A stretch of 37,449 nt of DNA from Alphaproteobacteria bacterium. GTDB lineage: Bacteria; Pseudomonadota; Alphaproteobacteria; Micropepsales; Micropepsaceae. Positions 12,491 to 27,056 of the stretch are shown piece after piece. Numbering within the stretch: the first letter of the stretch is position 1; each line of letters starts with the position of its first letter. The DNA lies in assembly GCA_013697055.1 (NCBI GenBank), contig JACCXK010000129.1:1-37449 (forward strand), written 5' to 3'. A program made the translations under genes and the position numbers. The notes beneath the pieces are model-generated. The model made no database searches, had not been told where the DNA came from, and saw only the letters and a program-made list of their open reading frames with translations.

Positions 12491-14035
12491 TTAAAGATAA
12501 TCTGCCGCAACCGTCTCGTCACGCAGGTCCCCGCCGACCGTGGCGCGCAGCAGCAGCGTTCCCAGCCCGCTTACCACCAGGTTGACCAAAAGCGCGCTCA
12601 GCGCCGCGTAACAAGGCACCGTCCATCCGAAGAGATGGAGCGGATAGACCGAAGCCTTGAAACTCAGTTCCGCCACCATCCAGGTGCCGAGCCCCACACC
12701 TGCTGCCCATCCCGCCAGCAATGCCCTGGGATCAAGCCGCACATACAGCGCCAGGAGAACGGCGGGCACCGTCTGGCAGATCCAGATGCCGCCCAGCAGT
12801 TGCAGCTGGATGGCGTAGGTGGTCTGCATTTCCAGCACAAAGAACAGCGCGCCCAGCTTGGCGGTGAAGGCCACCAGCTTGGCGACCTTGGCCTCGGTCT
12901 GGGGCGTGCAATCCGGCGCAATGAAATCCTTGAAGATGTTGCGGGTGAACATGTTGCCGCAGGCGATGGCCATGATGGAGGCGGGCATCAGCGCGCCGAT
13001 GGCGATGGCGGCGAAGGCAAAGCCTGCAAACCAGCCGGGGAACATGTGCAGGAACAGCGCCGGCACCGCGAAATTGTTGCCGAAGCTTTTGAAGCCCGCA
13101 GCATATTCCGGCATCTCCTTCACGCCCGATGCGATGGCCATGTAGCCGAGCAGCGCGATCAGCGCCAGCGCCACCGAATAGGCCGGCAGCACGATGGCGT
13201 TGCGGCGGATGACATGGCGGCTGGACGACGACAACAGCCCCGTCACCGAATGCGGATAGAGAAACAGCGCCAGCAGCGAGCCGACCGCGAGCGACATATA
13301 GGCAAAGCCCGCGCCCAGGCTGCCTTCCGGCGCGGGCGGCAACAGCAGCTGCTTGGACGGCACCGCGGCGAAGATCTTGGCGTAACCGCCCAGCTCGGAC
13401 GGGATGATGATAATCGCCGCCAGCACGGTGATATAGACCAGCAGATCCTTGACCACCGCGATCAGCGCGGTGCCGCGCAGGCCGGATGTATAAGTGAAGG
13501 CCGCCAGCACGCAGAAGGCCGCGATCAGCGGTACCGAAACGGTGCCCAGCACGGGCACGGTCACCGCATAATCCAGCCCCAGCGCCGCGATCACCACCTG
13601 CATGCCCACAAGCTGCAGCGCGATATAGGGCATCACCGCCACAAGGCCGGTCACTGCCACCGCCAGCGCCAATCCGCGATGGCCGAAGCGGCCGCGCACG
13701 AAATCGGCCGCGGTGATGTAGCCGCGTTTGTTCGACACCGACCACAGGCGCGGGAAGGCCATGAACAGCACCGGATACATCAGCGCGGCATAAGGCACGG
13801 CGAAGAAACCGTTGGCGCCAGCGCCGAACATCAGGGCAGGCACGGCGATGAAGGTATAGGCGGTGTAGAGATCCCCGCCCAAGAGGAACCAAGTGATCAA
13901 GGTGCCGAAGCTGCGGCCGCCCAGGCCCCATTCATGCAACTGGGACAGATCACCGGCGCGCCAGCGCGAACCGAACAGGCCCAGCAGCGCCACGAACACA
14001 AACAGCGCCAGGAAGACGATGACGGTGATGGTCAT
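12491..14035 (-). CDS. Sodium:solute symporter (SSF family, MctP-like)
   Basis: About 514 aa with about 13 membrane helices, solute:sodium symporter family. Motifs: GGRSFGTLITWFLLGGDLYTAYTF near the N-terminus, RLWSVSNKRGYITAADFVRGRFG, and SSSRHVIRRNAIVLPAYSVALALIALLGY. MctP-type members carry monocarboxylates such as lactate, pyruvate or propionate; the actual substrate is not readable. The start at 14035 (MTITVIVFLALF) overlaps the stop of the DUF3311 gene by 4 bases; upstream in-frame codons lie within that gene. The DUF3311-SSF pair is a recurrent unit. Confidence 0.88.
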   Translation of the reverse strand: MTITVIVFLALFVFVALLGLFGSRWRAGDLSQLHEWGLGGRSFGTLITWFLLGGDLYTAYTFIAVPALMFGAGANGFFAVPYAALMYPVLFMAFPRLWSVSNKRGYITAADFVRGRFGHRGLALAVAVTGLVAVMPYIALQLVGMQVVIAALGLDYAVTVPVLGTVSVPLIAAFCVLAAFTYTSGLRGTALIAVVKDLLVYITVLAAIIIIPSELGGYAKIFAAVPSKQLLLPPAPEGSLGAGFAYMSLAVGSLLALFLYPHSVTGLLSSSSRHVIRRNAIVLPAYSVALALIALLGYMAIASGVKEMPEYAAGFKSFGNNFAVPALFLHMFPGWFAGFAFAAIAIGALMPASIMAIACGNMFTRNIFKDFIAPDCTPQTEAKVAKLVAFTAKLGALFFVLEMQTTYAIQLQLLGGIWICQTVPAVLLALYVRLDPRALLAGWAAGVGLGTWMVAELSFKASVYPLHLFGWTVPCYAALSALLVNLVVSGLGTLLLRATVGGDLRDETVAADYL

Positions 14036-14235
14036 TTCTGCGGGTCCGGCTTTTGGCTTTGCTGCCAGAAATAGACCGGCACGATGCACAGCGATGTCAG
14101 GACGATACCGAAAATCTGCCACCAGTAGAAAAAGGGGATGCCCAGCAGCTGCGGCTCGAGGCGGTTGTAGAACGGTACCCAGAGGAACGCGGCATAGGGC
14201 ACCGCCAAAAACAGATAGACCGGATGGAATTTCAA
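14032..14235 (-). CDS. DUF3311 small membrane protein, symporter partner
   Basis: 67 aa with two membrane helices (FHPVYLFLAVPYAAFLWVPF and FFYWWQIFGIVLTSLCIVPVYF) joined by a short NRLEPQLLGIP loop, typical of DUF3311. I chose the TTG start at 14235 because a GGGGGA ribosome-binding site lies 7 bases upstream; longer in-frame openings would read through the repeat copy at 14255-14315. DUF3311 genes sit directly upstream of MctP-type symporters and probably code for a small accessory subunit (inference from conserved neighbourhood). Confidence 0.8.
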   Translation of the reverse strand: MKFHPVYLFLAVPYAAFLWVPFYNRLEPQLLGIPFFYWWQIFGIVLTSLCIVPVYFWQQSQKPDPQK

Positions 14236-14254
14236 ACTCTGTCCCCCATTTTGT

Positions 14255-14315
14255 TTGGTCGCGCGCCGCACGACGCTGTCGCTAACGACCCCTGCGGGTC
14301 GCCGGACGCTCCCGG
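14255..14315. repeat. Dispersed intergenic repeat, family 2, copy 1
   Basis: Shares with 15483-15550 and 26745-26799 the blocks TGGTCGCG, CGCTGTCGCTA and CGGGTCGCCGG-CGCT. It contains CGACCC-CTGC-GGGTCG, a 6-bp stem, and is followed by the hairpin AATGCA-ATA-TGCATT (14317-14331). It lies 3' of the cupin gene and 5' of the DUF3311 gene. Confidence 0.6.
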
Positions 14316-14330
14316 AATGCAATATGCATT

Positions 14331-14864
14331 TTATTGCGGAGGCACGAAATCCTGGCCTTCGGGCGCCTTGCTCGGATCCTTGGGCACATAGCGCACGCTT
14401 TGCACCGGGCCTTCACCCACCAGCATGAGAACGACCGGGCCGGTTTCGGTTTTGGCCCCGTCCCAATGGATGGTGTTCGGCACGTCGTTGACATAAGTGC
14501 CGGCCGGCACCGGATACATCTGGCTGGGATCGTAGTGGGTGCTGGATGACACCCACCAGGTGCCCGACACGACATAGGCGTAGCGCGGGGTGGAATGGGA
14601 ATGGGGCGTGGAATTGTGACCCGGCATCCAACGGATCAGCACGCCATAGAGGCCCGGCTTGTTGGGATCGCCGAACAGCGTTGCGCTCTGCGAACCTTCG
14701 CCGCCTTTCCAGGGAATATCCTTGCCGAACACCAGCGGAATATGGCCGGGGTCCGGCAGGGGCATTTTGCTTGTCGGCCCCTGGGTCAGGAGCTGCTGTT
14801 GCGTCTCGGCCGAAGCCGGAAGCGCCAGCAGTCCCAACACAGCGGCGGTCACCAGGTTGCGCAT
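14331..14864 (-). CDS. Exported cupin-domain protein (downstream copy of a tandem pair)
   Basis: 177 aa with signal peptide MRNLVTAAVLGLLALPASA. The start at 14864 is fixed by the signal peptide and an AGAG upstream. The single cupin barrel shows PHSHSTPRYAYVVSGTWW (metal-binding His pair), a Y/F-rich strand, and NTIHWDGAK (third His). It shares the pattern ..YAYVVSGTWW..YPV-AGT....HWDGA..G with the next gene upstream, so the pair arose by tandem duplication and then diverged. Ten bases separate the two. Cupins of this kind often bind or convert small carbonyl or sugar compounds; the substrate is unknown. Confidence 0.85.
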   Translation of the reverse strand: MRNLVTAAVLGLLALPASAETQQQLLTQGPTSKMPLPDPGHIPLVFGKDIPWKGGEGSQSATLFGDPNKPGLYGVLIRWMPGHNSTPHSHSTPRYAYVVSGTWWVSSSTHYDPSQMYPVPAGTYVNDVPNTIHWDGAKTETGPVVLMLVGEGPVQSVRYVPKDPSKAPEGQDFVPPQ

Positions 14865-14874
14865 GCGCGATCTC

Positions 14875-15414
14875 TTAGCGTGGCGGGCCCATGTCCTTGC
14901 CGTTTTCATCCACGCCTTGGGTGGTGTTGGGGCCGGTACCCGCCAGGACCAGCACGGCCGGCTCCTTCTCGCCGGTGCGCGCGCCATCCCAATGGACGCC
15001 CCTCAGTATGTCGACCGCCACGGTGCCGGCATGCACCGGATAGGTGGTGCGCTCGTCATAGACCTTGCTGGTGGACGTCCACCAGGTGCCGGACACGACA
15101 TAGGCGAAGCGTTCATTGTTGTGATAGTGCGGCTTGGAGAAATTGCCCGGATACCAGATGTACTTCACCATGTACGGACCCGGCTTGGCCGGATCGCCGT
15201 ACAGGTAGCACATCTGCATCTTGCCGACTTCGCCGGTGCACTTTTGGTCCTTGGGCAAGGTCGCGGTGACGCTGGTGGGATCGGGCGCCGGGCCGACGGG
15301 ATCATTGACGGTGACGCCGACCTTGGGGTCCTTCTGGGCCATGGCGGCGAATCCCGTCACGCCGACGCCGGCACCCACACACGCGGCCAAGGCAAGCTTG
15401 ATGATTGAACGCAT
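14875..15414 (-). CDS. Exported cupin-domain protein (upstream copy of a tandem pair)
   Basis: 179 aa with signal peptide MRSIIKLALAACVGAGVGVTGFAAMA. The start at 15414 has a strong GGGGAGAG ribosome-binding site. Cupin motif PHYHNNERFAYVVSGTWW (two His) and GVHWDGAR (third His) match the neighbouring cupin protein. The mature N-terminus has a conserved CTGEVGKMQMCYLYGDP segment with two Cys that could form a disulphide in the periplasm (inference). In one transcript with the other cupin, and perhaps with the symporter pair further downstream. Confidence 0.86.
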   Translation of the reverse strand: MRSIIKLALAACVGAGVGVTGFAAMAQKDPKVGVTVNDPVGPAPDPTSVTATLPKDQKCTGEVGKMQMCYLYGDPAKPGPYMVKYIWYPGNFSKPHYHNNERFAYVVSGTWWTSTSKVYDERTTYPVHAGTVAVDILRGVHWDGARTGEKEPAVLVLAGTGPNTTQGVDENGKDMGPPR

Positions 15415-15482
15415 TTTTCTCTCCCCATTGGAATTAGGGAAAGATGATAGGCGGGAACTGTGACGGCCCGCAAACTTATTGG

Positions 15483-15550
15483 ATGGTCGCGCCGGCAGGC
15501 CCGTCCGTACGCTGTCGCTACGGACCGCTCGGGTTGCCGGTCGCTTCGCG
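15483..15550. repeat. Dispersed intergenic repeat, family 2, copy 2
   Basis: ATGGTCGCGCCGG at the left and CGGGTTGCCGGTCGCT at the right match the copies at 14255-14315 and 26745-26799. The centre holds GTCCGTA and TACGGAC, a 7-bp stem around CGCTGTCGC. A further hairpin ACTTCGC/GCGAAGT follows at about 15554-15574. Sits 3' of the small membrane protein gene. Confidence 0.6.
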
Positions 15551-15579
15551 TTACTTCGCAAGCGCAGCGAAGTTATCTC

Positions 15580-15801
15580 TTAGGCGGCGCGTTTGCCCGC
15601 AAACACCAGTCCCAGCCCGGCCAGCACCGTGATCACACCGGCGGCGGTGGGAATCCAGACGGTATGGTCTTCCTGGGAATTGACCTCCAGCGGGCCCACC
15701 TTCACCACCGGCTTGGTCTCGGTCCAAGTGACGCGGCTGAGAAACAGCCCGCCAATGCCTAGAACAATCAGAACCACACCCAAAATCGCGATCGGCTTCA
15801 T
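15580..15801 (-). CDS. Small two-helix membrane protein of unknown function
   Basis: 73 aa. Start at 15801 is supported by a GGAGGT ribosome-binding site 5 bases upstream; a longer reading frame to 15861 has none. Helix 1 is PIAILGVVLIVLGIGGLFLS, helix 2 is IPTAAGVITVLAGLGLVFAG, with an exposed loop TWTETKPVVKVGPLEVNSQ between. Similar short inner-membrane proteins are common in proteobacteria and have no known role. It is cotranscribable with the cupin genes. Confidence 0.72.
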   Translation of the reverse strand: MKPIAILGVVLIVLGIGGLFLSRVTWTETKPVVKVGPLEVNSQEDHTVWIPTAAGVITVLAGLGLVFAGKRAA

Positions 15802-15875
15802 GAGTACCTCCAAATATGACAATGCAACGGCCGATGGGAACCAAAAGTTCCCGTTTGTCATACGCGACCCGTAAA

Positions 15876-15909
15876 ATGGAAAACGGCGCCCCGCCCCGGA
15901 GCGCCGTTT
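15876..15909 (-). terminator. Rho-independent terminator of the PEP-CTERM gene
   Basis: Stem AAACGGCGC (15881-15889) and GCGCCGTTT (15901-15909), read on the minus strand it is followed by TTTTCCATTTT. It lies 20 bases after the stop of the PEP-CTERM gene at 15931. Confidence 0.75.
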
Positions 15910-15930
15910 CGCAGTGAGGGGAATGCCGTT

Positions 15931-16539
15931 TTAGACGACCGAAGCTTTCTTGCGGCGGCGGAGGGCAGCCATACCGGTCAAGCCTGCCGCAAACAGCGAC
16001 AGGGTCAGCGGCTCGGGCACGTCAACAGCCCCGATACGCTCGCTGGCGATAATCGGCGTGTTGATCTGCGACTCAAAGCCGTAGCCGACCAGCGTCGAAC
16101 CCAAGGTTTCGGCAAAACCGAAATGGTCGCCATCAGCCAGCGTGAACTTCAGGCCGATGAAATCCTCCGCGATGGAATAGGGAATTGGAGCGGCGGTCGG
16201 GAAGGCCTTGAACGGATAGCCGGTCGCGCCGATATTGGAATCGATTTGGAACCCGACCACCATATCCTGACCGAAGAAGCTGAAATAATTCACCTGCGCC
16301 GTGCCACCTGTCGCCACAGCATCGATGTCGTTGGTGTTGCCGCCGAGATAGCTGAAGGTGTAGCTGGCTTGACCGCCGCCAAAACTGATGGTGGTGGGTG
16401 AATTGGTGAAATCGGTATTGGAATTCACATAAACGGGCGCAGCGCTTGCGAGCGTTACTGTACCCATCAACGCCGCACCCGTGATCAGAACGCGCATCGC
16501 GGACATTATCATTTGTCTGCCGACTCTACTGGAACTCAT
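15931..16539 (-). CDS. PEP-CTERM sorting domain protein 1
   Basis: 202 aa. Signal peptide near the N-terminus (MRVLITGAALMGTVTLASAA) and a C-terminal sorting signal VPEPLTLSLFAAGLTGMAAL ending in RRRKKASVV: the PEP motif, a membrane helix, then an Arg/Lys cluster. Such proteins are exported, recognised by an exosortase, cleaved and released or attached to the surface/exopolysaccharide matrix. The central part is a beta-rich domain without recognisable catalytic motifs. The start at 16539 has GAGGTAAC upstream; an internal Met 10 codons later is possible. Upstream lie a sigma-54-type promoter and a shared palindrome (see those entries). Confidence 0.9.
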   Translation of the reverse strand: MSSSRVGRQMIMSAMRVLITGAALMGTVTLASAAPVYVNSNTDFTNSPTTISFGGGQASYTFSYLGGNTNDIDAVATGGTAQVNYFSFFGQDMVVGFQIDSNIGATGYPFKAFPTAAPIPYSIAEDFIGLKFTLADGDHFGFAETLGSTLVGYGFESQINTPIIASERIGAVDVPEPLTLSLFAAGLTGMAALRRRKKASVV

Positions 16540-16597
16540 ACTGTTACCTCAGTGTTCAAAAAGCCCCTTCAAAAGCTTTCGCGAACATCAGAGTTAA

Positions 16598-16613
16598 TGC
16601 AGGAAATAGGCCC
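16598..16613 (-). promoter_or_regulatory. Sigma-54-type -24/-12 promoter of PEP-CTERM gene 1
   Basis: GGGCCT-N5-CTGCA on the minus strand keeps the GG and GC pairs at the correct spacing for RpoN (consensus TGGCAC-N5-TTGCW). The -12 GC falls at 16600-16599, placing the start of transcription near 16587, about 48 bases before the ATG. Confidence 0.5.
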
Positions 16614-16655
16614 TTCGGGCCGCGCCTCGCTTTTTTGAATCCGGAACTGCCGGTT

Positions 16656-16672
16656 TGTAATTGCGCGTTACA
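16656..16672. promoter_or_regulatory. 17-bp palindrome TGTAA-N7-TTACA (predicted enhancer-binding site)
   Basis: TGTAATTGCGCGTTACA. The same YGTAA-N7-TTACR form occurs at 24332-24348 and 27040-27056, each upstream of a PEP-CTERM gene with a sigma-54-type promoter. Here the centre is about 77 bases upstream of the predicted transcription start. Likely the binding site of an RpoN activator such as PrsR (inference). Confidence 0.55.
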
Positions 16673-16808
16673 GAATCGCATGTGCGAAAACGCGCGAATG
16701 AACTTTCACATTATCCGTGTTCGGAGAATCAAAAAATTTGTTCCCGGAACTTCGGATTTTTTAGCGGCGTGTGCCATCTGTGAATCGCAGCAAATGTTAT
16801 TATCACAA

Positions 16809-17345
16809 TCAACGATAACTTTTGTCATCGATCCTGCTCAGATCGGTATTGTTCATCACGCCGATGGTGACGATGGCATAGGTGAAGACCTCGGTTCCCG
16901 GCTCCAGGTGGCCGTTGATGGCTTTCTCGCCTGTGCCCAGCATCATGTGGGCGTGGACCACACCATTCACGACATAGCCGTTCATGCCCACCAGGTCGCA
17001 GGGCGTGGTCAGCGCCTTGGTGAAGACGTTGCGGGTGGGAAAGTCACGATTGTTGATCTGGTGGACGTGATAGCCGCGCAAGGACCCGATGCCCGCCAGG
17101 ATGACGCCGTTCTTGATCCCCTGCGCTTTCACCATCTCTTCGATGCCGCGCAGCAGATCCACTTTGTTCTTCATCCGCAGCACCACGATGCGGTCGAATT
17201 GGCCCGTCAGGGCATAGGCGTCGGGCACGGACGGATCATTGGGTTTGGCGTCCGCCGGGGTCATCGGATTCTGGATCACTTCGACTTGGGCATATGCGGG
17301 GGCCGCGGCGAGAAGAAGAAGGGCAAGCGCGATGGACAGCTTCAT
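16809..17345 (-). CDS. Exported PCC (DUF296) domain protein
   Basis: 178 aa with signal peptide MKLSIALALLLLAAAPAYA; the start at 17345 is set by it. The mature protein is a PCC/DUF296 domain: VLRMKNKVDLLRGIEEMVKAQGIKNGVILAGIGSL, then GVVHAHMMLGTGEKAINGHLEPGTEVFTYAIVTIG, with the usual VHAHM metal-site-like His cluster. In plants the domain is fused to AT-hooks; in bacteria stand-alone copies are cytoplasmic and of uncertain role. An exported version is unusual and implies a periplasmic ligand or metal function. Divergent from the TPR/oxygenase gene across 96 bases. Confidence 0.82.
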   Translation of the reverse strand: MKLSIALALLLLAAAPAYAQVEVIQNPMTPADAKPNDPSVPDAYALTGQFDRIVVLRMKNKVDLLRGIEEMVKAQGIKNGVILAGIGSLRGYHVHQINNRDFPTRNVFTKALTTPCDLVGMNGYVVNGVVHAHMMLGTGEKAINGHLEPGTEVFTYAIVTIGVMNNTDLSRIDDKSYR

Positions 17346-17441
17346 GGGGTTCGCCTCTTTGGTGGGGCCAGTATGACGCGGCGGCGCGCGCGCGCGAATA
17401 GGGCTTGCATCGCCGGGGCCGTCCGTGACGGAATCGGCGCC

Positions 17442-18908
17442 ATGGCGCATGATTCCGTTGCCCTGGCTCAAGTCCTGCTGCGGAGCGGGCGCGTATTGGA
17501 AGCACGCGACGCACTGGTGCAGGCAATTGCCGCAGGCCAGGACGGCGCGCCGGTTCGCAGCCTGTTGGGCCTGGTCCTGCACCAGCTGGGCGATTTGCCG
17601 GGCTGCCAGCGCGAACTGCGCCAGGCGGTGACCTTGGCGCCCCAGGACGGGGCGGCGCAATTTGCCCTGGCCTCGATCGCGCTGCGGTTAGGGGATGAAG
17701 AAGAAGCGGAAGCTGCCGCACGCCGCGCCGTCACGCTGGGCATGGATGACATCCACTCCTATGTCCTTCTGGGGCGGCTGTTCAACAAGCAGGGCCGGCT
17801 GGAGGAAGCCGAGACCGCCTGGCGCAAGGCGGTGCGCAAGGATCCCTCCTCGCCGCAGGCCCAGCGCGAACTGGCCGGGCTGGTGTGGATGCGGACCGGC
17901 GATCTGAGCCGCGCGCGCGCCGAACTGGATGCGGCGCCCCAGACGCCCGACATTGTCGCGGTCACGGTGCGGTTGTTGCAGGATGCCGGCGACGAGGCCG
18001 GCGCCTACACTTTGGCGGCGGCGCGGGCGGATCGCGATGCGAGCCTGAATGTGCTGGCGGCGCGCGCAGGGTTGAAGTTCGATCCGCAAGACTCCGACCG
18101 GCGCCTGTCCGACGCCGCGCCGGGCATCACGCCGCAGCTGCGGGCCAAGGCCGAGATTGAAGTGGACCTGGCATTGGGCCGCATTGAACAGGCGGTGAAG
18201 CGCGCCGAGGCGTTGCATGCCGCCCGGCCCACCGACCAGCACGCCACCGCGCTGTTGGCAGTGGCGTGGCGGCTGGCGGGCGATCCCCGCTACGCGTCGC
18301 TGTATGACTATGGCCGGCTGGTCAAGGCTTATCGCATTGAAGCGCCGCAAGGCTGGAGCAGCCTGGACGACTACCTGCGCGATCTGGGTGACGCGCTGGA
18401 TGCCATCCACGGGCCGCTGACCCATCCGGTAGGCCAATCGCTGCGCCATGGCAGCCAGACCATGCGGGCGCTGTCCGATTATCCCGATCCGGCGATCCGC
18501 GCGCTGTTTGACGCCATCGACGAGCCGATCCGCGCGCATATCGCCGCGCTTGGCGAACCCAATCAGGACTATGGCTTCGGCGGCGCCTGGTCGGTGCGAT
18601 TGAACGCGAGCGGCTTTCACATCAATCACATCCATCCCGAAGGCTGGCTGTCGTCGGCCTTTTATGTGCGACTGCCGGAAAAGATGGAGGGCCGGGAAGG
18701 CTGGCTGAAATTCGGCGAGCCAGGTCCGCCGACAGTGCCGCCGCTGGCCCCCGATCATCTGGTCAAGCCCGAGCCTGGCCTGTTGGTGCTGTTTCCATCC
18801 TATATGTGGCACGGCACCGTGCCGTTTGCGTCAGACGACAAGCGTCTCTCCTGCGCCTTCGACATCGTGCGGCGGAGCTTCAAAGATCCAGGTGCAGGAA
18901 CTGGTTGA
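17442..18908 (+). CDS. TPR-repeat protein with C-terminal 2OG-Fe(II) oxygenase domain
   Basis: 488 aa. Residues about 1-150 are tetratricopeptide-like helical repeats (LLGLVLHQLGDLPGCQRELRQAVTLAP, LLGRLFNKQGRLEEAETAWRKAV). The last ~200 residues are a putative 2-oxoglutarate/Fe(II) oxygenase (PF13759 type): FHINHIHPEGWLSSAFYVRLP supplies the first His ligand, GLLVLFPSYMWHGTVPF the second, followed by an Arg for 2-oxoglutarate. TPRs may present a protein or peptide substrate. Start ATG at 17442 is the first Met of the family-like part; upstream in-frame sequence is antisense to the PCC gene. Overlaps the convergent GNAT gene by 29 bases. Confidence 0.85.
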   Translation: MAHDSVALAQVLLRSGRVLEARDALVQAIAAGQDGAPVRSLLGLVLHQLGDLPGCQRELRQAVTLAPQDGAAQFALASIALRLGDEEEAEAAARRAVTLGMDDIHSYVLLGRLFNKQGRLEEAETAWRKAVRKDPSSPQAQRELAGLVWMRTGDLSRARAELDAAPQTPDIVAVTVRLLQDAGDEAGAYTLAAARADRDASLNVLAARAGLKFDPQDSDRRLSDAAPGITPQLRAKAEIEVDLALGRIEQAVKRAEALHAARPTDQHATALLAVAWRLAGDPRYASLYDYGRLVKAYRIEAPQGWSSLDDYLRDLGDALDAIHGPLTHPVGQSLRHGSQTMRALSDYPDPAIRALFDAIDEPIRAHIAALGEPNQDYGFGGAWSVRLNASGFHINHIHPEGWLSSAFYVRLPEKMEGREGWLKFGEPGPPTVPPLAPDHLVKPEPGLLVLFPSYMWHGTVPFASDDKRLSCAFDIVRRSFKDPGAGTG

Positions 18909-19335
18909 ATGGGCTGCGCGTGTAATCGGCAAAGGCTTCGCCATCGCTGAAGCCGTGGCTGCGATAAAGCCGCAGCGCCGGCTCGAATGCGGGGCCGGAG
19001 CCTGTCTCCAGGCTGAGCCGCCGCAGGCCCCGCGCACGCGCCTGCTCAATGATATGGTTGAGCAAAAGCCGGCCCACGCCCTGGCGCAGGAAACCCGGAT
19101 GGGTCCGCATGGATTTGATTTCGCCGGTCCTGGCGTCCAGCCGTTTCAAGGCGCCGATGCTGCAGAAGGCATCGCCCCGCCAAACGCTCCAGACAGTGAC
19201 CTCCGGGACTTTGAGGCCCGACAGGTCCAGCGCGAAGACATGACCGGGCGGCGAGTTGGAATGCATGCCGGCAAGATGCAGCCGCAGCAGATCCTGTGTT
19301 TCCCGGCTCGACAGGTCGTCTATCTGTATGTTCAT
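18880..19335 (-). CDS. GNAT family N-acetyltransferase
   Basis: 151 aa GNAT. The acetyl-CoA-binding motif A is IKSMRTHPGFLRQGVGRLLLNHIIEQARARG (R/Q-x-x-G-x-G/A type) and motif B is LRLYRSHGF. It fits the YsnE/YjaB-like small acetyltransferases with LSLETGSGPAF before the last strands. The substrate is unknown. Its 3' end overlaps the convergent TPR/oxygenase gene by 29 bases, so these two genes cannot both have long 3' untranslated regions without antisense pairing. Confidence 0.9.
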   Translation of the reverse strand: MNIQIDDLSSRETQDLLRLHLAGMHSNSPPGHVFALDLSGLKVPEVTVWSVWRGDAFCSIGALKRLDARTGEIKSMRTHPGFLRQGVGRLLLNHIIEQARARGLRRLSLETGSGPAFEPALRLYRSHGFSDGEAFADYTRSPFNQFLHLDL

Positions 19336-19366
19336 CGACGCCCCCTTGTGCCGGTTTGATCTTCCG

Positions 19367-20527
19367 TTACTGATCGAGGGCTGAAAAGCGAAATTCCGTC
19401 ACTTCGTGAAAGGCTTTTCCGGGAACCAGTTCGGTCGACGGAAAGTTCGGGTGATTGGGCGAATCCGGATAGTGCTGCGTCTGGAATGATATCGCGCTGT
19501 GCGGCACATATCCCTTGGCATGGGCGACCTGCGGGCGCACGGAATTGGCGGTATAGACCTGCACGCCGGGTTGCGTCGTCCAGACTTCCAGCTGCCGTCC
19601 CGCCTCGACATCGCGCAGCCGCGCGGCGATCCGCAGCTTTCCCGGCACGCCGTCAATGACGAAATTGTGATCGATACCTTTCTTGCTGGCGATCTGCAAA
19701 TCGCTTGAACCCAATCTGGGGCCAAGCACGGCAGGCGCCGTGAAATCGAAATCCGTTCCCGTCACATCGCGTATTTCCCCCGTGGGGATGCTGCCGGCGT
19801 CAATCGGCGTGTAGTGGTGTGCGAACAGCTGCAGCGTTTCATGATCGATGGTGGCGGACGGATTGCCCGACAGGCTGAAATAGGAGTGATTGATCAGGTT
19901 GATGACGGTTTTCTTGTCCGTCGTGGCGCGATAATCGATCCGCAGCCTGTTATGCCGGGTCAGGGTGTAAGTGACCGTCACCTCGACGGTGCCCGGAAAT
20001 CCCATATAGCCGTCGGGGTCGGTCCTTTTCAGGATCAGCTGCGGTTCGGCGCCATCGCGGATGGTTGCGGTAAAGACCTGGCGGAAATAGGCCATCACGC
20101 CACCCTGGTCCAGATCGCCGTTCTTGTCGGGATCGAGGGCATAGCTCTGTCCGTCAATGGTCAGCCTGGCGCCTTTGATGCGATTGGCGAAGCGGCCGAC
20201 GATGGCGCCGTAATGTCCGTTGGCGCGGATATAATCCTCGCTGGTATAATCCGTCAGCGTGTCGAAGCCCTGCACGACATTTGCGAATGCGCCGCCCTTC
20301 CCCGGCGCATGGATGGAAACCACCACCCCGCCATAGTTGGAAATGCGCACCTGCATTCCCGCGGCGTTGGTCAGGGTGTAGAGATTGGCCGGGCGGTGGT
20401 CGTCGGCGGTCGCGCCCCAATCCTGCGTGGTGATCGCGGCCTGGACGGGCGCGCAAACGGCCAGGACGGCCAACATCACCAGGGGCATCAAGCAGTTGGT
20501 GTTGTACTTTTTAAGTTCCATGGCCAT
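19367..20527 (-). CDS. Exported aldose 1-epimerase (GalM-like) with altered catalytic residues
   Basis: About 386 aa with an N-terminal signal (LMPLVMLAVLAVCAPVQA). The galactose mutarotase fold is clear: NYGGVVVSIHAPG, GAIVGRFANRIKGARL (conserved Arg), NHSYFSLSG (conserved His), GIDHNFVI (conserved Asp), and QHYPDSPNHPNFPST. Two key positions differ. The LHGG motif with its catalytic-site His reads LDQGG (codon 20105-20107, CAG), and the catalytic base Glu in the usual LETQ block reads FQTQ (codon 19481-19483, CAG). A normal mutarotase is therefore doubtful; sugar binding may remain. Start codon uncertain between 20527 and 20521. Confidence 0.85.
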   Translation of the reverse strand: MAMELKKYNTNCLMPLVMLAVLAVCAPVQAAITTQDWGATADDHRPANLYTLTNAAGMQVRISNYGGVVVSIHAPGKGGAFANVVQGFDTLTDYTSEDYIRANGHYGAIVGRFANRIKGARLTIDGQSYALDPDKNGDLDQGGVMAYFRQVFTATIRDGAEPQLILKRTDPDGYMGFPGTVEVTVTYTLTRHNRLRIDYRATTDKKTVINLINHSYFSLSGNPSATIDHETLQLFAHHYTPIDAGSIPTGEIRDVTGTDFDFTAPAVLGPRLGSSDLQIASKKGIDHNFVIDGVPGKLRIAARLRDVEAGRQLEVWTTQPGVQVYTANSVRPQVAHAKGYVPHSAISFQTQHYPDSPNHPNFPSTELVPGKAFHEVTEFRFSALDQ

Positions 20528-20642
20528 CGCGCAAGCTAGCCGTGATCCTGTCCGAAAGCGATCCAAACTTATGCAGCGTCACGGGGCGGTTACAAACCTG
20601 CGCCAAGGTGTCCGCCATGCAATGTTTTTAGGGATCATGTTC

Positions 20643-21350
20643 ATGAAATCGCTCGTCAAAACGGCCGCCATCGCCGCATTTTTTGTCTCCGCGGCCCTAT
20701 CGTCCGCGCAGGCACTGGTGGTCGGCGTCACCGACACCAACCCGAACCACAGCAATTCCGCGCCGTTCGGAAGCGCCCAGGCCGCCTATGTCTATCAGCA
20801 GGTGTTTGATGATAGCGCTTTCAGCGGCCCGCTGACCATCAACCAGCTCACCTTCTACGACACGATCCTCAAGGGCGGCTCGCCGAATCCGGGCAGCAAC
20901 TTCCAGATCTATCTGGCAGCCACCACCACACAGCAAGTGAATGCCATTACCGACAATTTTCCTGTCGCCCTTATCAACAGCGCCACGCTGGTCTTCAATG
21001 GCGCCATTCCGGCGCTTGCCAATGGGCGGCTCGACTTCACCCTGTCCCAGTCTTTTGCCTATGACCCAAGCGGGGGCACCAACCTGTTGTTGATCGTCAA
21101 GAATTTCGACCTGTCCGGATCGGCGACGCCGTTGTTCCTGGACTCCGACACGCGGGGCACCGTCACCAGCTCGCGCCAGTATAGCGGCCCGAATGGTCCG
21201 GCCGGCAATCTCAAGACCGGGCTTGTCACCGGCTTCAACGATGTTGTCGCCGTGCCGGAACCGGCGACCTGGGGCAGCATGCTGGCCGGACTGGCGCTGA
21301 TCGGCTTCATGGCCACCCGCCGCCGCCAAAGGTCGCCGGCAATCGGCTGA
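20643..21350 (+). CDS. PEP-CTERM sorting domain protein 2
   Basis: 235 aa. Signal peptide MKSLVKTAAIAAFFVSAALSSAQA; the ATG at 20643 is chosen for the AGGGA 8 bases upstream, though in-frame ATGs at 20622 and 20637 exist. The C-terminus is VPEPATWGSMLAGLALIGFM followed by TRRRQRSP, the PEPxTW variant of the exosortase signal. The body is a beta-sandwich-like choice-of-anchor domain, with no catalytic motif. A weak -24/-12-like sequence (CGG-N11-TGC around 20587-20602) precedes it, but the shared palindrome is absent. Strong terminator follows. Confidence 0.88.
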   Translation: MKSLVKTAAIAAFFVSAALSSAQALVVGVTDTNPNHSNSAPFGSAQAAYVYQQVFDDSAFSGPLTINQLTFYDTILKGGSPNPGSNFQIYLAATTTQQVNAITDNFPVALINSATLVFNGAIPALANGRLDFTLSQSFAYDPSGGTNLLLIVKNFDLSGSATPLFLDSDTRGTVTSSRQYSGPNGPAGNLKTGLVTGFNDVVAVPEPATWGSMLAGLALIGFMATRRRQRSPAIG

Positions 21351-21370
21351 CGCCACGCGCACAAAGAAAA

Positions 21371-21401
21371 ACGGGCACCCGATTGGGTGCCCGTTTTTTT
21401 T
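21371..21401. terminator. Bidirectional rho-independent terminator between convergent PEP-CTERM genes
   Basis: ACGGGCACCC (21371-21380), GATT loop, GGGTGCCCGT (21385-21394) and a run of T to 21401; A-rich on the other side, so it can serve the plus-strand gene ending at 21350 and the minus-strand gene ending at 21419. Confidence 0.92.
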
Positions 21402-21418
21402 GCGCCTGGAGATCCGGC

Positions 21419-23545
21419 CTATCCGGCGACGGCCTGCACGCGGCGGCGGCGCACAAAGCCGCCCAACAAACCCAGCCCGGACAGGAACAGGATCCAGGTC
21501 ATCGGCTCCGGCACGTCGGCCACCAACTGTCCGCCGCCTGCCAGCGCATAGGTCAGACCGCCGAGATAGGCGTTATCGGTTTGGTAGGCGTCGTAATAGA
21601 CGGTCAGGCCGTTAAAGCCGGTGATGTTAGCGATCGAACTTCCCGAGATCAGCGCGCCGATCAGGTCCGCGACATACCAGCCCCGGTTGCAGAGCGCCGT
21701 TCCATTCTTGAACGTGATCAGATTGCCGCCGTCGATGTTCAGCTCGCCCCAGCTGAAATCCTGGTTGCGGGCGGTTTTGCCGTTGTCGGCGCCCAGCACG
21801 TCGATCCAATGATTGGTCTGGTCGGCGCCGATGAGTTCGAGGGTCGCCTCCCGCGTGTACCAAAGCTGGTTCTTGGTGCTGGCATTGGTGAAATTACCGC
21901 CCACCTTGAAAACATCGCCCGCGCCCGCCTGGATATAGCCGTTGGCGCCGACCGAGAGATTGTTGAACGTCTGGGTCGAAGGGTCGGAAATATAGGCGCC
22001 GTTGTTCTGGAAGGTGCCGGTAAAGCTGACGGTCGCATTGTCGACCCTGACCGTGCCGTTGTTGACGACATCGCCGCCCAGGGCGCCGTTCACCAGCATG
22101 GTGGCGCCGGTGGCCACCGTCACGCCCGAGGCATAGGTCTGGTTGCCATTGACCGCCCAGCGGCCGCTATCGACCTTCAGGACCTCGACACCGGAGACGT
22201 TCGCCAGGGTGCCGTTGCCGCTGCCCAGCAGATGGATGGTGTCGGAGCCCCCGCCGCCATTCAGAGCGCCGTTCAGGGCAGAGCCGCCATAAAGGTTGAT
22301 CGTATCGACACCGTTGCCCATCACCACGCTGCCATTGATCACGCCGCCGGCGCGATTGGTCAGGGTGTCGCCGGAAATGCTGGTGATGGCGATGGCCTGG
22401 CCGTTCGTGCCGGTGATGGTGCCGGCATTGTCTATGCTGGTGGCGCCAAAGGCGTTGCCGTGATCGCTGTCGTCCACGGTGATGGCGCGTTCGTCGGAGA
22501 TGATCAGGCCGCCCGCATTGTTGGTGACCGTGCCGCCGCCGATCGCCAACGCTTCGTTGAGCGAAGCCGCCGCCACCGGATCGATGCCCACGGCCCGGAT
22601 GGTGCCCGCGTTGGTGATATTCACGAGATAGTCGACATCGATGGCGTCGCCATCGGCATGGACCGCGTTGCCGGTGATCACGCCGCCGGCATTGTTGACC
22701 ACAACGGTGATGCCGCTGGCCGTGGTGGTGTCGATGTTCAGGCCCGAACCGTCCACGCCCGTGATGGTGCCGGAATTGTTGACGATGATGGCGTCCTTGC
22801 CGGTGATGGCATTGCGCGCGCCTGTGATGGACCCGGTCGAGAAATTGTTGATCGTGCCGCCCTTGCCGACATCCTGGAAATCGATGGCGTCATTGTTGCT
22901 GTCATTGCCATTCGCGCCGGTCACCCAATTGGCGATGATCTGGCCGGAATTGTTGATGGTGGCGCGGTTGCCGGGCCGTATGCCGTCGGCATCGGCGGCC
23001 TGGATCACGCCGCCAACCTGGTTGGTGATGGTGACGGTGCCGGTGGTGGTGGTGATGGCGTTGAAATCCAGCGCCTGGCCATTGCTGCCGCCGGTGCCGG
23101 TGGCCTTGATGGTGCCGAAATTGTTGACGTTGATGGCGCCGGTGCCGATATCGTTGTTGATCTGGAACGCGTCATTGCCCGCCGAGGCGAGCACGGATGT
23201 GGCGGTCAGGTTGTCGAAATTGAAGCTGCGCGCCGCGCCGGCGGCATTGCTGGATGTGCCGATGCCGCGCGAGGAGCCCGAGCCCTGGATCGTTCCGGAA
23301 TTGTTGATGGTGACGGCAGCGGTGGTGTTGGTGTTCAGGCTCCAGGTGATGGCGACCGTCCCGGCCGCCGGCGTCAGCTTGCCGCCGGCGCCGATGGTCC
23401 CCAGGTTGGGACCGAACACCGTCTTGCCGCCGGTATCGGTGGCGCCCGGATTGACCGTGAAGTCGGCCGCGAAAGCCTGGGGCGTCAGCAAAACAACCGC
23501 GGCGCCCGCCAGCAAGGACGCGCGAAATCCAGCAAAACCAATCAT
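21419..23545 (-). CDS. PEP-CTERM beta-solenoid surface protein 3
   Basis: 708 aa. Signal peptide MIGFAGFRASLLAGAAVVLLTPQAFAA (start 23545; a TTG start 9 codons upstream is less likely). The body is a long series of degenerate repeats such as INNSGTI..G, VNNFGTIKATG, VNNSGTITGVDGSG, ITNAGTIRAVG, IDNAGTITGTNG, as in autotransporter passenger beta-helices. A hemolysin-type-like GNGVDTINLYGG ... GGSDTIHLLGSG segment follows (about 430-475). Instead of a beta-barrel translocator, it ends in VPEPMTWILFLSGLGLLGGF with RRRRVQ, an exosortase signal. So an adhesin-like fibre probably sorted by exosortase. Upstream there is a perfect TGGCACG (23617-23623 on the minus strand), but the -12 element is mis-spaced. 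Confidence 0.88.
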   Translation of the reverse strand: MIGFAGFRASLLAGAAVVLLTPQAFAADFTVNPGATDTGGKTVFGPNLGTIGAGGKLTPAAGTVAITWSLNTNTTAAVTINNSGTIQGSGSSRGIGTSSNAAGAARSFNFDNLTATSVLASAGNDAFQINNDIGTGAINVNNFGTIKATGTGGSNGQALDFNAITTTTGTVTITNQVGGVIQAADADGIRPGNRATINNSGQIIANWVTGANGNDSNNDAIDFQDVGKGGTINNFSTGSITGARNAITGKDAIIVNNSGTITGVDGSGLNIDTTTASGITVVVNNAGGVITGNAVHADGDAIDVDYLVNITNAGTIRAVGIDPVAAASLNEALAIGGGTVTNNAGGLIISDERAITVDDSDHGNAFGATSIDNAGTITGTNGQAIAITSISGDTLTNRAGGVINGSVVMGNGVDTINLYGGSALNGALNGGGGSDTIHLLGSGNGTLANVSGVEVLKVDSGRWAVNGNQTYASGVTVATGATMLVNGALGGDVVNNGTVRVDNATVSFTGTFQNNGAYISDPSTQTFNNLSVGANGYIQAGAGDVFKVGGNFTNASTKNQLWYTREATLELIGADQTNHWIDVLGADNGKTARNQDFSWGELNIDGGNLITFKNGTALCNRGWYVADLIGALISGSSIANITGFNGLTVYYDAYQTDNAYLGGLTYALAGGGQLVADVPEPMTWILFLSGLGLLGGFVRRRRVQAVAG

Positions 23546-23682
23546 TACCCGTACCCCTTTGTGTTTGCCCAAAGGGTAGGGTTGCGGGGTGACACATCCG
23601 TGACAAACAGGCGGAACGTGCCAATTTGGCGCGGCTTTTCGTTAGCGCGGGCAACTGCAAACCGGCGCGCACAAACAAAAAC

Positions 23683-23705
23683 GGCGCCCTCGAGGGCGCC
23701 GCGTT
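23683..23705 (-). terminator. Rho-independent terminator of PEP-CTERM gene 4
   Basis: Perfect 18-base palindrome GGCGCCCTCGAGGGCGCC (23683-23700). Read on the minus strand it is followed by GTTTTTGTTTG. It lies just after the stop of the gene at 23724. Confidence 0.8.
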
Positions 23706-23723
23706 TGCTGCAAAGTTTGCATC

Positions 23724-24239
23724 TTACGCTTTCCTTGTTTTCTTGCGGCGGCGCAGCGCCGCGGCGCCGGCCAGACCGGCGCCGAACAAGGAGAGGGTGA
23801 CGGGCTCGGGAACGGCAGCGGCGGGTGCTGGCGCCGCCGAGATCGTGCCGAAAGCCTGCTGCTGCAGGTTGCCGTAATAATACACATACCCGCTGGTCGT
23901 CCCCAGGGAGAATCGATTCGGATTTGAGCCGATCTGCTGGCTGAAGGATGCGTTCCAGAATCCGCCATTCAAGAACTGCACGGAGCTGGCCGTGCCGGAG
24001 AAGCTGTGGCCATCGATCAGGAAGGTCACGGCTGCGGTGCCCAAATTGGCCAGGCCGCTGGCGGGAGGCGCGAACGCGAGATCGATGGTGCCCGTGCCGT
24101 TGTACGTGGAAAGCGGCGCGCCAGTGCTATTGCCGGTGGAGGTCAGGGTCAGCGTGTACAGGACGCCGGCGTTCGCGGCCCCGGCCGACGCGCCGAGCGC
24201 GAGCAGGACGGCCAACACGAGCTTCTTGAAACGCATCAT
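23724..24239 (-). CDS. PEP-CTERM sorting domain protein 4
   Basis: 171 aa. Signal peptide FKKLVLAVLLALGASAGAANA; C-terminus VPEPVTLSLFGAGLAGAAAL with RRRKKTRKA, the PEPxTL variant almost identical to those of genes 1 and 5. The central domain is small, Gly/Ser/Thr rich, with an Ala/Pro linker (SAAPAPAAA) before the sorting signal. Start could be 24239 or the next codon. It carries the best-supported sigma-54-type promoter on this strand, with a YGTAA-N7-TTACR palindrome upstream in the divergent region shared with PEP-CTERM gene 5. Confidence 0.88.
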   Translation of the reverse strand: MMRFKKLVLAVLLALGASAGAANAGVLYTLTLTSTGNSTGAPLSTYNGTGTIDLAFAPPASGLANLGTAAVTFLIDGHSFSGTASSVQFLNGGFWNASFSQQIGSNPNRFSLGTTSGYVYYYGNLQQQAFGTISAAPAPAAAVPEPVTLSLFGAGLAGAAALRRRKKTRKA

Positions 24240-24276
24240 CGGATTTCCCAGCGCCGGAGGTTATCCGCCGGTGTTA

Positions 24277-24292
24277 CGCAAAGTTCGTGCCG
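24277..24292 (-). promoter_or_regulatory. Sigma-54-type -24/-12 promoter of PEP-CTERM gene 4
   Basis: CGGCAC-GAACT-TTGCG on the minus strand, nearly the full RpoN consensus (TGGCAC-N5-TTGCW). The -12 C is at 24278, giving a start near 24266, about 27 bases before the ATG at 24239. Confidence 0.65.
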
Positions 24293-24331
24293 GTAGAAAC
24301 GCGGCGGAAAAGCAGAGTTTTTTTAGGCGCG

Positions 24332-24348
24332 TGTAAAAGATATTTACA
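24332..24348. promoter_or_regulatory. 17-bp palindrome TGTAA-N7-TTACA (predicted enhancer-binding site)
   Basis: TGTAAAAGATATTTACA, centred about 74 bases upstream of the predicted start of PEP-CTERM gene 4. It lies between divergent PEP-CTERM genes 4 and 5 and could in principle serve both, though no good -24/-12 was found on the gene 5 side. Confidence 0.6.
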
Positions 24349-24518
24349 AAACTGTCATTTTTGCAGCCACCCGTGACGACGCTGTTCATCCCAGCTGTAT
24401 CGATGGTGGTGCCATCAGACCTCATTCTCAGGTCGCAGCCATGTGGGCGACGCTCTCATTCGAACTGTCGCAAACCGGCGATACGGTCACCCGGCAATTC
24501 ATCCGACCGGGGACCATC

Positions 24519-25199
24519 ATGTCATTCAAGTTTGGCTTCATCTGCGCCGCGGCGCTTGCCTTCTTCACCACTGTCGCCGAGGCGGCGACCTATCAATTCA
24601 ACATCAATACCAGCAGCCTGGCGGGTACCAGCGGCTACCTGGATTTCCAGTTCGGCAATTCGAGCTTTGGTCCTTTCCAGGAGGTGACCGCCACCATTTC
24701 CACCTTCCAGGGCGGTGGCGGCACCCTGGCGAATATCGATCCCTATACCTCAACCGATCAGTTCGGCTTTCCCGATGTGCTGGGCAAGGTTTTCGGCACC
24801 TTGCCCGCGGCCGTGACGCTTGACGATAACGGCAGCGTGTCGGTCACGGAATATTTTCACCCCTTCACCTTCGGCAACTCGATTTCCTTTTTGCTGACCC
24901 TGGGCGGGCCTGCGGTCGATGCTCCCCTGTGCGCCGGCTTCGGCGGCTGCGACCTGCATGCCTTTGGCATTGGCATCCTGGACGGCGGCGAAAATTATCT
25001 GTTCACCACCGATCCCAACGCATTTTTGCTGGGCGGCGTGCAGGTGAACCGCAACGGCACTCTCACGTCCTATCTCAATCCCGGCGCCGCCTCCGCGCTG
25101 GCGATTACCGCGGTGCCCGAGCCTGTGACGCTGACCCTGTTCAGCGCGGGCCTGATCGGTGTTGGCGCCCTTCGCCGCAAGAAGGCCGCGCGCGCGTAA
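24519..25199 (+). CDS. PEP-CTERM sorting domain protein 5
   Basis: 226 aa, resembling the NF038129-type PEP-CTERM family. Signal peptide MSFKFGFICAAALAFFTTVAEAA; start at 24519 preceded by GGGGA. C-terminus VPEPVTLTLFSAGLIGVGAL with RRKKAARA. The beta-rich body has DLHAFGIGILDGGENYLFTTDP near its end and a CAGFGGCD segment with two Cys. The upstream 280 bases are shared with the divergent gene 4. It ends 8 bases from the convergent RlpA-like gene. Confidence 0.87.
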   Translation: MSFKFGFICAAALAFFTTVAEAATYQFNINTSSLAGTSGYLDFQFGNSSFGPFQEVTATISTFQGGGGTLANIDPYTSTDQFGFPDVLGKVFGTLPAAVTLDDNGSVSVTEYFHPFTFGNSISFLLTLGGPAVDAPLCAGFGGCDLHAFGIGILDGGENYLFTTDPNAFLLGGVQVNRNGTLTSYLNPGAASALAITAVPEPVTLTLFSAGLIGVGALRRKKAARA

Positions 25200-25207
25200 A
25201 CCGTCCT

Positions 25208-25681
25208 TCAGGGATGTCCGTCCGGCTTTGCATCATCGCCTGGTGCGCCCTCGGCTAGCGGACTGTCCTGGTCTTCGTGAAACGCCTTGACGCTCCCCCG
25301 GGCCACGCCGCGCCGGAACATCCCCAATTCTCGTGCCGCGGCGGCGGAAACGTCGATGACGCGGCTTTTGGTGTGCGGACCGCGGTCTGTGACGCGCACC
25401 TTCACCCAGCGCCGATTGCGCAGATTGGTGACCCGCACGATGGTACCGAAGGGCAGCCAAGGATGCGCCGCCGTGAAATCGCGCCAATCGAAGCTCGTCC
25501 CGCTGGCGGTGATTTTGCCGCCGTGTTTTTCGCCATAGTACGAGGCTGATCCGCTCTGGATGAAATAAGCCTGCGGGTTTTGGACATCTGCAGTGTGCTC
25601 ATGATGACGGACTGCCGGATGTGCGGTGGCGGGGACAATTGCCGCCATGGTTGCGATCAGGACGATCACCGCAGGCCGCAT
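25208..25681 (-). CDS. RlpA-like double-psi beta-barrel protein
   Basis: 157 aa with a signal peptide ([20 protein letters not shown]). The RlpA-type domain is complete: [73 protein letters not shown]. RlpA proteins are septal-ring lytic transglycosylases acting on denuded glycan; this one has no SPOR domain, so its septal targeting is uncertain. The ATG sits inside the reading frame of the truncated comM remnant (its frame ends at 25666), so the gene may have been brought here by the deletion that removed most of comM and may depend on comM transcription. Confidence 0.85.
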
Positions 25682-25927
25682 GTCGCCGCCAGCAATCCCA
25701 GCGCGATGGGCAGGTCGTAATGCGAACCTTCCTTGGGCAGGTCGGCGGGGGCGAGATTGACGGTGATGCGCTTGAAGGGCAGCGCCAGGCCGATGGCGCT
25801 CAGCGCCGCCCGCACCCGCTCCTTGCTTTCCCCCACCGCCTTGTCGGCCAGGCCGACAATGTTGAACAGCCCGTTGCCGCCATCACCGACATGGACCTGG
25901 ACATCGACTTCACGCGCCTCGATGCCC

Positions 25928-25951
25928 CGGTATTAGGTAGCAAGCTTCCAA
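25928..25951 (+). repeat. Left terminal inverted repeat of the 753-bp element
   Basis: 24 bases beginning CGGTATTAGGTAGC and ending TTCCAA; perfect inverse of 26657-26680. Preceded by the target duplication CGATGCCC at 25920-25927. Confidence 0.92.
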
Positions 25952-26101
25952 GCCTAGCGGCTTGAAATCGAGCGCCTAATTCCGAAGCCTCGGAATTATG
26001 GAGAAGAAACAACCCTTTGTTGGAATTTGGCCGACAGCGCACGGTGCGTTGCGGGCTTCTGTGTGTCTGGCACCTTTTGCCCGACATGATAGGAGTCCGA
26101 C

Positions 26102-26836
26102 ATGGGGCCTAAATTACTCAAGCATCTGCGCACCTTCGCGCTCTATCTGGTCGGCACCGTCTTCGCTATTTGGCTTGGCGCGCTCGCCCAAGACCTACAT
26201 TGGCTCGATCATCCTCGGGCGCAGGTCCAAGCCCTCATGAATGTCTTAGCGGCGGTAGCGCATTCAGAGGCGTTTCACTGGGCTGGCGGCGTGGCGATTG
26301 GCTTTGCGCTAGGGGTGTGGCTGGACACCATGTTGCGACGTAAAGAGGCGGTACTGCCGTCAGCGCCACCCGAAAAGACGTTGCAGCAGCGCGCTGAGGA
26401 AAACCGGGCACGGCTTCAGACATCGCCGCCGCCGCTGCCTTTGAGGGACCTTCCTAAGCTTCCACCTACAGCCAAGGAAAAGCTTGGAAGCTGGACCATT
26501 ACAGACAAGTTCAGCGTGGCCGAGGCTTCATTCCTTTGGGCCGGGTACTTAGCTGTCTATGGCGGCGGCAATAGCATCACGCTTATTGCGGAGGATCACG
26601 ACGGTTTGGGACTCGGCCATAATCGACCAAATACCCCCGGACCCCCAAGGAAGTCTTTGGAAGCTTGCTACCTAATACCGCGATGCCCTGGAAGGCCACT
26701 GTATAGACGTGGGCAACGGTCATCGAAGCCCGCTCAGTTTTTTAATGGTCGCGCCGGACGGGCCCTCGCTGCGCTCGGGTCGCCAGTCGCTCTGGCGGGC
26801 TTCGATCCCCTGAAACGCTACAGTGTAGGCGTGTGA
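26102..26836 (+). CDS. Passenger membrane protein of the 753-bp element, running out through its right end
   Basis: Not a family I can name. ATG at 26102 has an AGGAG 6-7 bases upstream. 193 codons lie inside the element; the frame then continues through the right terminal repeat (reading LEACYLIP) and antisense to the comM debris to a stop at 26836 (244 codons total). Two membrane helices are visible (about residues 10-30, FALYLVGTVFAIWLGALAQ; and about 58-78, AGGVAIGFALGVWLD), then a Pro-rich linker and a soluble block TDKFSVAEASFLWAGYLAVYGGG. The lack of a stop inside the element suggests the gene is 3'-truncated, probably by the internal deletion that created this small element. Confidence 0.55.
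   Translation: MGPKLLKHLRTFALYLVGTVFAIWLGALAQDLHWLDHPRAQVQALMNVLAAVAHSEAFHWAGGVAIGFALGVWLDTMLRRKEAVLPSAPPEKTLQQRAEENRARLQTSPPPLPLRDLPKLPPTAKEKLGSWTITDKFSVAEASFLWAGYLAVYGGGNSITLIAEDHDGLGLGHNRPNTPGPPRKSLEACYLIPRCPGRPLYRRGQRSSKPAQFFNGRAGRALAALGSPVALAGFDPLKRYSVGV
26657..26680 (-). repeat. Right terminal inverted repeat of the 753-bp element
   Basis: Perfect 24-base inverse of the left end, ending CCTAATACCG, followed by the target duplication CGATGCCC at 26681-26688. Confidence 0.92.
26722..26806. repeat. Dispersed intergenic repeat, family 2, copy 3, bounded by 12-bp inverted repeats
   Basis: The core 26745-26799 (ATGGTCGCGCCGG ... CGGGTCGCCAGTCGCT) matches the copies at 14255 and 15483. It is bracketed by ATCGAAGCCCGC (26722-26733) and GCGGGCTTCGAT (26795-26806), an exact inverted repeat. 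The right arm is also the codons for IEAR in the outer comM start copy, so the repeat lies exactly where that copy breaks off. Confidence 0.6.
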
Positions 26837-26845
26837 AACGGTCAT
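26807..26845 (-). pseudogene. Second, diverged copy of the comM start region
   Basis: Minus-strand ATG at 26845 opens MTVSHAYTVAFQG and, into the adjoining repeat arm, IEAR: nearly the same peptide as the comM start at 26723 (MTVAHVYTVAFQGIEAR), but with many synonymous base differences. It is then broken by the family 2 repeat and soon reaches a stop. Either an ancient partial duplication of comM or the relic of a second comM allele acquired by recombination. Confidence 0.65.
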
Positions 26846-27039: not shown

Positions 27040-27056
27040 CGTAAAAGTCATTTACG
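27040..27056. promoter_or_regulatory. 17-bp palindrome CGTAA-N7-TTACG (predicted enhancer-binding site)
   Basis: CGTAAAAGTCATTTACG, third member of the YGTAA-N7-TTACR set. Its centre is about 87 bases upstream of the predicted sigma-54 start for PEP-CTERM gene 6. The inner bases AAG-N2-AT are also shared with the copy at 24332. Confidence 0.6.

Follow-up and report, generated by a model that had tools for sequence, protein, structure and literature searches.

What does a signal-bearing galactose mutarotase (GalM) homologue do once both the histidine of its LHGG motif and its catalytic glutamate have become glutamine? The question is raised by a gene at positions 19367-20527 (minus strand) of a 37,449-nucleotide stretch of contig JACCXK010000129.1 (assembly GCA_013697055.1, an alphaproteobacterium of the Micropepsaceae), the whole of which is referred to below as the window.

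A GalM-fold protein with glutamine at two catalytic positions

A 386-residue reading frame starting from ATG fills 19367-20527 of the minus strand exactly, as the first-pass annotation of this DNA had it, with an upstream TTG at 20566 as an alternative start that would add 13 residues. Read by eye, residues 1-30 (20438-20527, minus strand) resemble a signal peptide with the boundary APVQA/A; in an AlphaFold2 model built from a 53-row alignment (mean pLDDT 91.6, pTM 0.89), pLDDT falls below 50 at residues 1-5 and 8-15, and the first strand starts at residue 31. From the sequence we infer that the protein is periplasmic. Nearly the whole of the aldose 1-epimerase profile PF01263 (positions 2-298 of 299) matches residues 49-379 with an E-value of 2.6e-74 and 250.8 bits, against a gathering cut-off of 27.

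Among solved structures, the best match to the model is human GalM (1snz_B; Z 51.1, rmsd 1.5, 340 residues), followed by 4rnl (Z 50.1) and Lactococcus lactis GalM (1l7k_A, Z 48.2; the L. lactis set as a whole at about 48), such that GalM superpositions overall lie at Z 48-51. Judged from the predicted structure, the GalM fold and descent of the protein are ordinary. The model also superposes (Z about 48, rmsd 1.6) on L. lactis mutants altered at the very same positions, i.e., E304Q, crystallised according to the entry titles with galactose (1ns0) and with glucose (1ns4), and H96N, likewise with galactose (1nsu); these sugar complexes imply that sugar can still be accommodated when only one of the two positions is altered.

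The GalM active-site set is given in the accessible text of PMC5622589 as Arg71, His96, His170, Asp243, and Glu304. By alignment, three of these are retained in the window protein as Arg116, His214 (codon 19886-19888, minus strand), and Asp286, within the NRI, NHSYF, and DHNF motifs, respectively, in agreement with the first reading of the sequence. The other two are replaced: the His96 position is occupied by Gln141 (CAG, 20105-20107, minus strand) and the Glu304 position, i.e., that of the LETQ motif, by Gln349 (CAG, 19481-19483, minus strand), both codons being exactly where the first-pass annotation had put them. Its description of the first change as LHGG becoming LDQGG holds for the replacement of histidine by glutamine, though not for the inserted residue that this spelling implies; Gln141 aligns with the histidine and Asp140 with the preceding leucine, and the motif is therefore really DQGG.

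Both glutamines are a trait of a three-species clade

A contig scan of genomes returned 265 confirmed relatives, of which the best 80 loci were retained. Among these 80, only L009 (74% identity) and L010 (72%) are close to the window protein; the other 78 reach at most 44%. Both glutamines are present in each of the two, which together account for 2 of the 97 GalM reading frames in the 80 loci, the remaining 95 having His and Glu. The proteins of L009 and L118 are identical, and so are those of L010 and L119; three species are accordingly known to belong to the Gln/Gln clade. The two nearest relatives come from separate assemblies and are about 72-75% identical to the window protein, with 72-78% identity among the three proteins (hereafter the trio). 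His96 and Glu304 are Gln, and Arg71, His170, and Asp243 are unchanged, in 3 of 3. The double replacement is therefore a clade trait; the first-pass annotation had left open whether close homologues would share both glutamines or have the normal His and Glu, and none of the latter kind occurred. An isolated substitution or a sequencing error is ruled out by the presence of both glutamines in three separate assemblies.

GalM matches are found in 37 of the 96 genomes of the family; an order-level search covered the same 96 and added nothing. The genome of the window has eight such matches, two of them partial; four GalM copies in it (L123, L124, L125, and L126) are complete and carry the full five-residue active site, making mutarotation itself redundant. 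For a wider census, 138 GalM-like reading-frame hits from the family loci and twelve named loci outside the family were reduced to 114 rows by excluding duplicates and frames spanning too little of the query. Glu304 is Glu in 111 of the 114, with only the trio lacking it. Across the 104 family rows, the canonical residue is found 101 times at position 304 (Glu, with Gln in the three trio members), 103 times at 170 (His, with Arg in L120), 84 times at 96 (His), 103 times at 71 (Arg), and 99 times at 243 (Asp).

His96 is also absent from 17 further relatives of the same genus, which group with the trio. One is L120, the fourth member, with His96 changed to Gln and His170 to Arg and with Arg71, Asp243, and Glu304 kept; at L120:8781-12330, this homologue follows a same-strand GH92 gene. 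The other sixteen keep His170 and Glu304 and have a loop motif without GG. All 94 rows outside this 20-row group have both His96 and Glu304, although, the group having been recognised partly by its loss of His96, only the Glu304 count is independent; moreover, a few of the 94 differ at Arg71 or Asp243 and thus depart from the fully canonical set.

Pattern searches extended the survey beyond the family. FQTQH[YF]P matched 1 of 385 genomes of the class, namely that of the window, and none of the four other genomes of its genus in that sample (to which G053 and G059 do not belong). A wider Gln pattern matched 8 of 249 genomes of the phylum, the window match being real and the seven others (L196-L202) having no GalM-like reading frame of at least 40 aa at an E-value of 1e-3; the same pattern with Glu matched 10 of 249, with two new loci of which L203 is GalM-like and L204 is not. 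Being both narrow and not specific, these patterns say little about rarer forms. Titles and abstract openings among the literature matches listed included none on a GalM relative without these residues.

Order of the losses

In a quick tree of all 114 rows, the trio, L120, and the sixteen His96-less paralogues form one 20-row group (SH-aLRT 98). A careful tree of 54 of these rows, from which the catalytic stretches were excluded, supports the trio (100/99), the trio with L120 (100/99), the sixteen (100/99), and the 20-row group (90/93), and on it a single change each suffices for the loss of His96 and of Glu304. This topology indicates a stepwise course in which His96 was lost first, at the base of the 20-member group, and Glu304 then in the trio, with the next relative (L120) having lost His170 rather than Glu304. 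That His96 was lost only once, at that base, is probable and moderately supported, the alternative being two separate losses. Placing the trio and L120 with the canonical partner clade gives a p-AU of 0.029, and placing the sixteen there instead gives 0.082, which is not rejected and leaves room for a double loss; the groups were named after inspection of the quick tree and these values are hence indicative. A single loss of His96 is accordingly the better reading, albeit unproven.

Purifying selection on the altered proteins

The first-pass annotation took the fold to be otherwise under selection, and this is borne out. Nei-Gojobori dN/dS is 0.18, 0.22, and 0.29 for the trio pairs and 0.20 to 0.35 for pairs with L120, indicating purifying selection. 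These ratios were calculated from dN and dS as printed and are rough owing to codon bias; those of the trio fall inside the range of about 0.09-0.38 obtained when 8 of the 16 canonical partner-clade rows are paired (28 pairs), and 7 of the 16 His96-less rows give about 0.21-0.38 (21 pairs). Of 40 columns at least 95% conserved in the 94 rows, the trio retains 34, including R116, H214, and D286. Changes are fixed in the trio at four of the 40, i.e., H141Q and E349Q at the catalytic residues, T212I two residues before His214, and S170D, which is fixed in 20 of 20 rows of the group. Asp140 is found in the four nearest members (the trio and L120), and L86 and N134 are altered in most of the sixteen His96-less rows.

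It is thus scarcely credible that the window gene is decaying and without function. Two otherwise conserved catalytic residues are indeed gone, but dN/dS values of 0.18-0.29 speak against decay, as do genes intact in three species, a signal-like N-terminus by eye in 3 of 3, and the retention of most of the best-conserved columns.

Genomic surroundings

The neighbourhoods of the window gene (14 genes, 14032-27901), L118, L119, and L120 were subjected to an all-against-all comparison at an E-value of 1e-4. No conserved partner gene was found among the four, only the GalM genes matching, save for one weak neighbour match (26% over 100 residues) between a PF13759 oxygenase close to the window gene and another close to L118. 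The surroundings differ throughout: a GNAT acetyltransferase gene (PF00583; 18880-19335, minus strand) lies 31 bp downstream of the window gene on the same strand, an overlapping PF13759 oxygenase gene accompanies L118, a SET-domain gene L119, and a GH92 gene lies upstream of L120. The GNAT gene is unmatched among the genes compared around the orthologues and is thus probably not part of a system. Quinoprotein-like genes near L118 and L119 do not match each other at 1e-4, a TonB receptor lies near L118, and none of the quinoprotein-like, TonB receptor, or GH92 genes recurs among the window genes compared. With neighbours not conserved, context gives no ligand.

Elsewhere in the window, a 698-residue protein (21419-23515, minus strand) has many NNSGTI-like repeats and a C-terminal PEP-CTERM motif, and further PEP-CTERM-like frames were seen by eye at 15931-16539, 20637-21350, 23724-24239, 24519-25199, and 27218-27901. 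A short frame at 25666-25932 (minus strand; 88 residues from stop to stop) resembles what we take to be the N-terminal part of ComM/YifB, adjoining a presumably RlpA-like frame within 25208-25882.

The trio gene lies outside a cluster in which many of its paralogues are found. At 12 loci (L123:6229-10595, L121, L122, L129-L134, and L139-L141), a signal-bearing HpcH/HpaI-type aldolase (PF03328; one scanned) is sandwiched between a canonical GalM and a His96-less one, and at a thirteenth, L143, the contig end truncates the second GalM. It is unusual for an exported aldolase to be placed between two mutarotase homologues. By eye, the cluster adjoins RecA- and AlaS-like reading frames in several loci, and at L129:2021-3303 (G046) the aldolase is split over two overlapping frames, possibly through a frameshift or an assembly error.

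Discussion

We propose, with slightly better than even confidence, that the window protein and its two orthologues are pseudo-mutarotases kept as stand-alone sugar-binding proteins of the periplasm. Their ancestry would lie among exported aldose-1-epimerases that were duplicated within the genus; this lineage would have lost the LHGG histidine first, after which the ancestor of the three species would have swapped the catalytic glutamate for glutamine. With the Glu304 carboxylate gone and the GalM fold and the Arg71, His170, and Asp243 positions retained, an aldose or the reducing end of a glycan would be expected to bind in the periplasm with little or no interconversion of anomers. The loss of ordinary mutarotation is likely, and catalytic residues have gone from an otherwise retained enzyme fold, as is the mark of a pseudoenzyme; the sugar-binding role itself we infer from the positions that were kept.

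Glutamine has no base function but is still able to hydrogen-bond a sugar, and in L. lactis GalM His170 is reportedly the acid and Glu304 the base, by which assignment the trio would lack the base. In the accessible portion of PMC5902678, the role of general acid in GalM is assigned to the His92-equivalent (the LHGG-type histidine) and that of general base to the Glu254-equivalent (the glutamate), with the NHSYF-type histidine binding substrate, which would leave the trio without acid as well as base; a later passage of the same source reverses the acid and base labels. L120 lacks His170 and retains Arg71, Asp243, and Glu304, whereas the trio lacks Glu304, such that the binding positions persist in all four nearest members and the catalytic residues lost differ. 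The double amide in the trio, the different loss in L120, and the persistence of Arg71 and Asp243 in all four would fit a pocket kept for binding and released from turnover.

The main rival, which we consider unlikely yet the most serious of the alternatives, is a changed enzyme, in which His170 and Asp243, perhaps with the new Asp140 or Asp170, would catalyse another reaction on periplasmic sugars, e.g., another epimerisation or lactone or keto-sugar chemistry. The trio does keep His170, Asp243, and Arg71, and the acids newly acquired at positions 140 and 170, present in the four nearest members and across the group, respectively, could replace the lost bases; in addition, the sixteen paralogues, twelve of them in aldolase loci, keep His170 and Glu304. 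On the other hand, the trio gene has no conserved enzyme neighbour and is not in the aldolase cluster, and no classical acid/base pair is common to the four nearest members. A slow mutarotase, in which glutamine and the remaining histidine would give a reduced but useful exchange of anomers, is distinctly improbable. Arg71, His170, Asp243, and the fold are all in place, and the window protein passes the cut-off of the galactose-1-epimerase subfamily profile NF008277 (248.6 vs 240 bits), as do L119 (246.8) and L120 (252.5), with L118 (239.5) narrowly failing. Against this stand the Glu at position 304 of every other census row, the absence of both general acid and general base by the assignment in the accessible portion of PMC5902678, and the canonical GalM copies in the same genome; the TIGR02636 equivalog cut-off is also missed (267 vs 397.65 bits for the window protein, and likewise by L118, L119, and L120), which is weak evidence because the canonical paralogues were left unscored. 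That the protein is instead an inactive paralogue pairing with or regulating canonical GalM or a glycan uptake system is very unlikely: canonical copies do co-occur in G000, G053, and G059, yet linkage is not conserved among the window gene, L118, L119, and L120.

More broadly, the twenty His96-less proteins might constitute a new class of periplasmic sugar proteins that have moved off mutarotation in a genus-level radiation of exported GalM homologues, with the trio at its far end, some acting with the exported HpcH/HpaI-type aldolase and canonical GalM in a new extracytoplasmic sugar pathway and the trio serving as a stand-alone binding or sensing component; taken as a whole, this scenario is speculative and we would not expect it to hold. 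For annotation, the NF008277 match would lead to a call of galactose-1-epimerase, which is probably an error in the case of the trio and open to doubt in that of the sixteen His96-less paralogues. Should the binding reading be true, the clade would offer a natural example of an enzyme that became a binding protein, its intermediates (His/Glu, no His/Glu, Gln/Gln, and Gln with His170 lost) still alive in relatives, rendering the order of catalytic loss directly testable.

Among known systems, a GalM-like fold within a protein complex is seen in a chain of the plant NDH-PSI supercomplex (9grx_2, 7wff_b), which we take to be the non-catalytic PnsB2; this, however, is a plant subunit that matches only at Z of about 20 and 11% identity. 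Sulfoquinovose mutarotase, as described in the accessible part of PMC5902678, belongs to the GalM superfamily and has an altered substrate range but keeps both His and Glu, and NbAELP, a plant aldose 1-epimerase-like protein, is a GalM relative with a signal sequence, though with all five active-site residues intact in the corresponding text of PMC5622589. Nearer to the trio are the His96-less paralogues of the same genus (16 rows, e.g., L123 6229-7335), which share S170D and a probable common loss of His96 and differ in keeping Glu304, in lacking the loop GG, and, for twelve, in their conserved cluster. GalM proper (EC 5.1.3.3; L. lactis 1l7k, human 1snz) has the same whole-length fold with Arg71, His170, and Asp243, whereas the window protein bears a signal and has Gln at both His96 and Glu304. 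In each of the L. lactis mutants crystallised with sugar (E304Q in 1ns0 and 1ns4, H96N in 1nsu), only one of the two positions is altered, through a single engineered substitution, whereas in the trio both changes occur naturally and are fixed across the clade. A double replacement that arose in nature, is shared by a whole clade, and has intermediates among living relatives makes for an unusual GalM variant.
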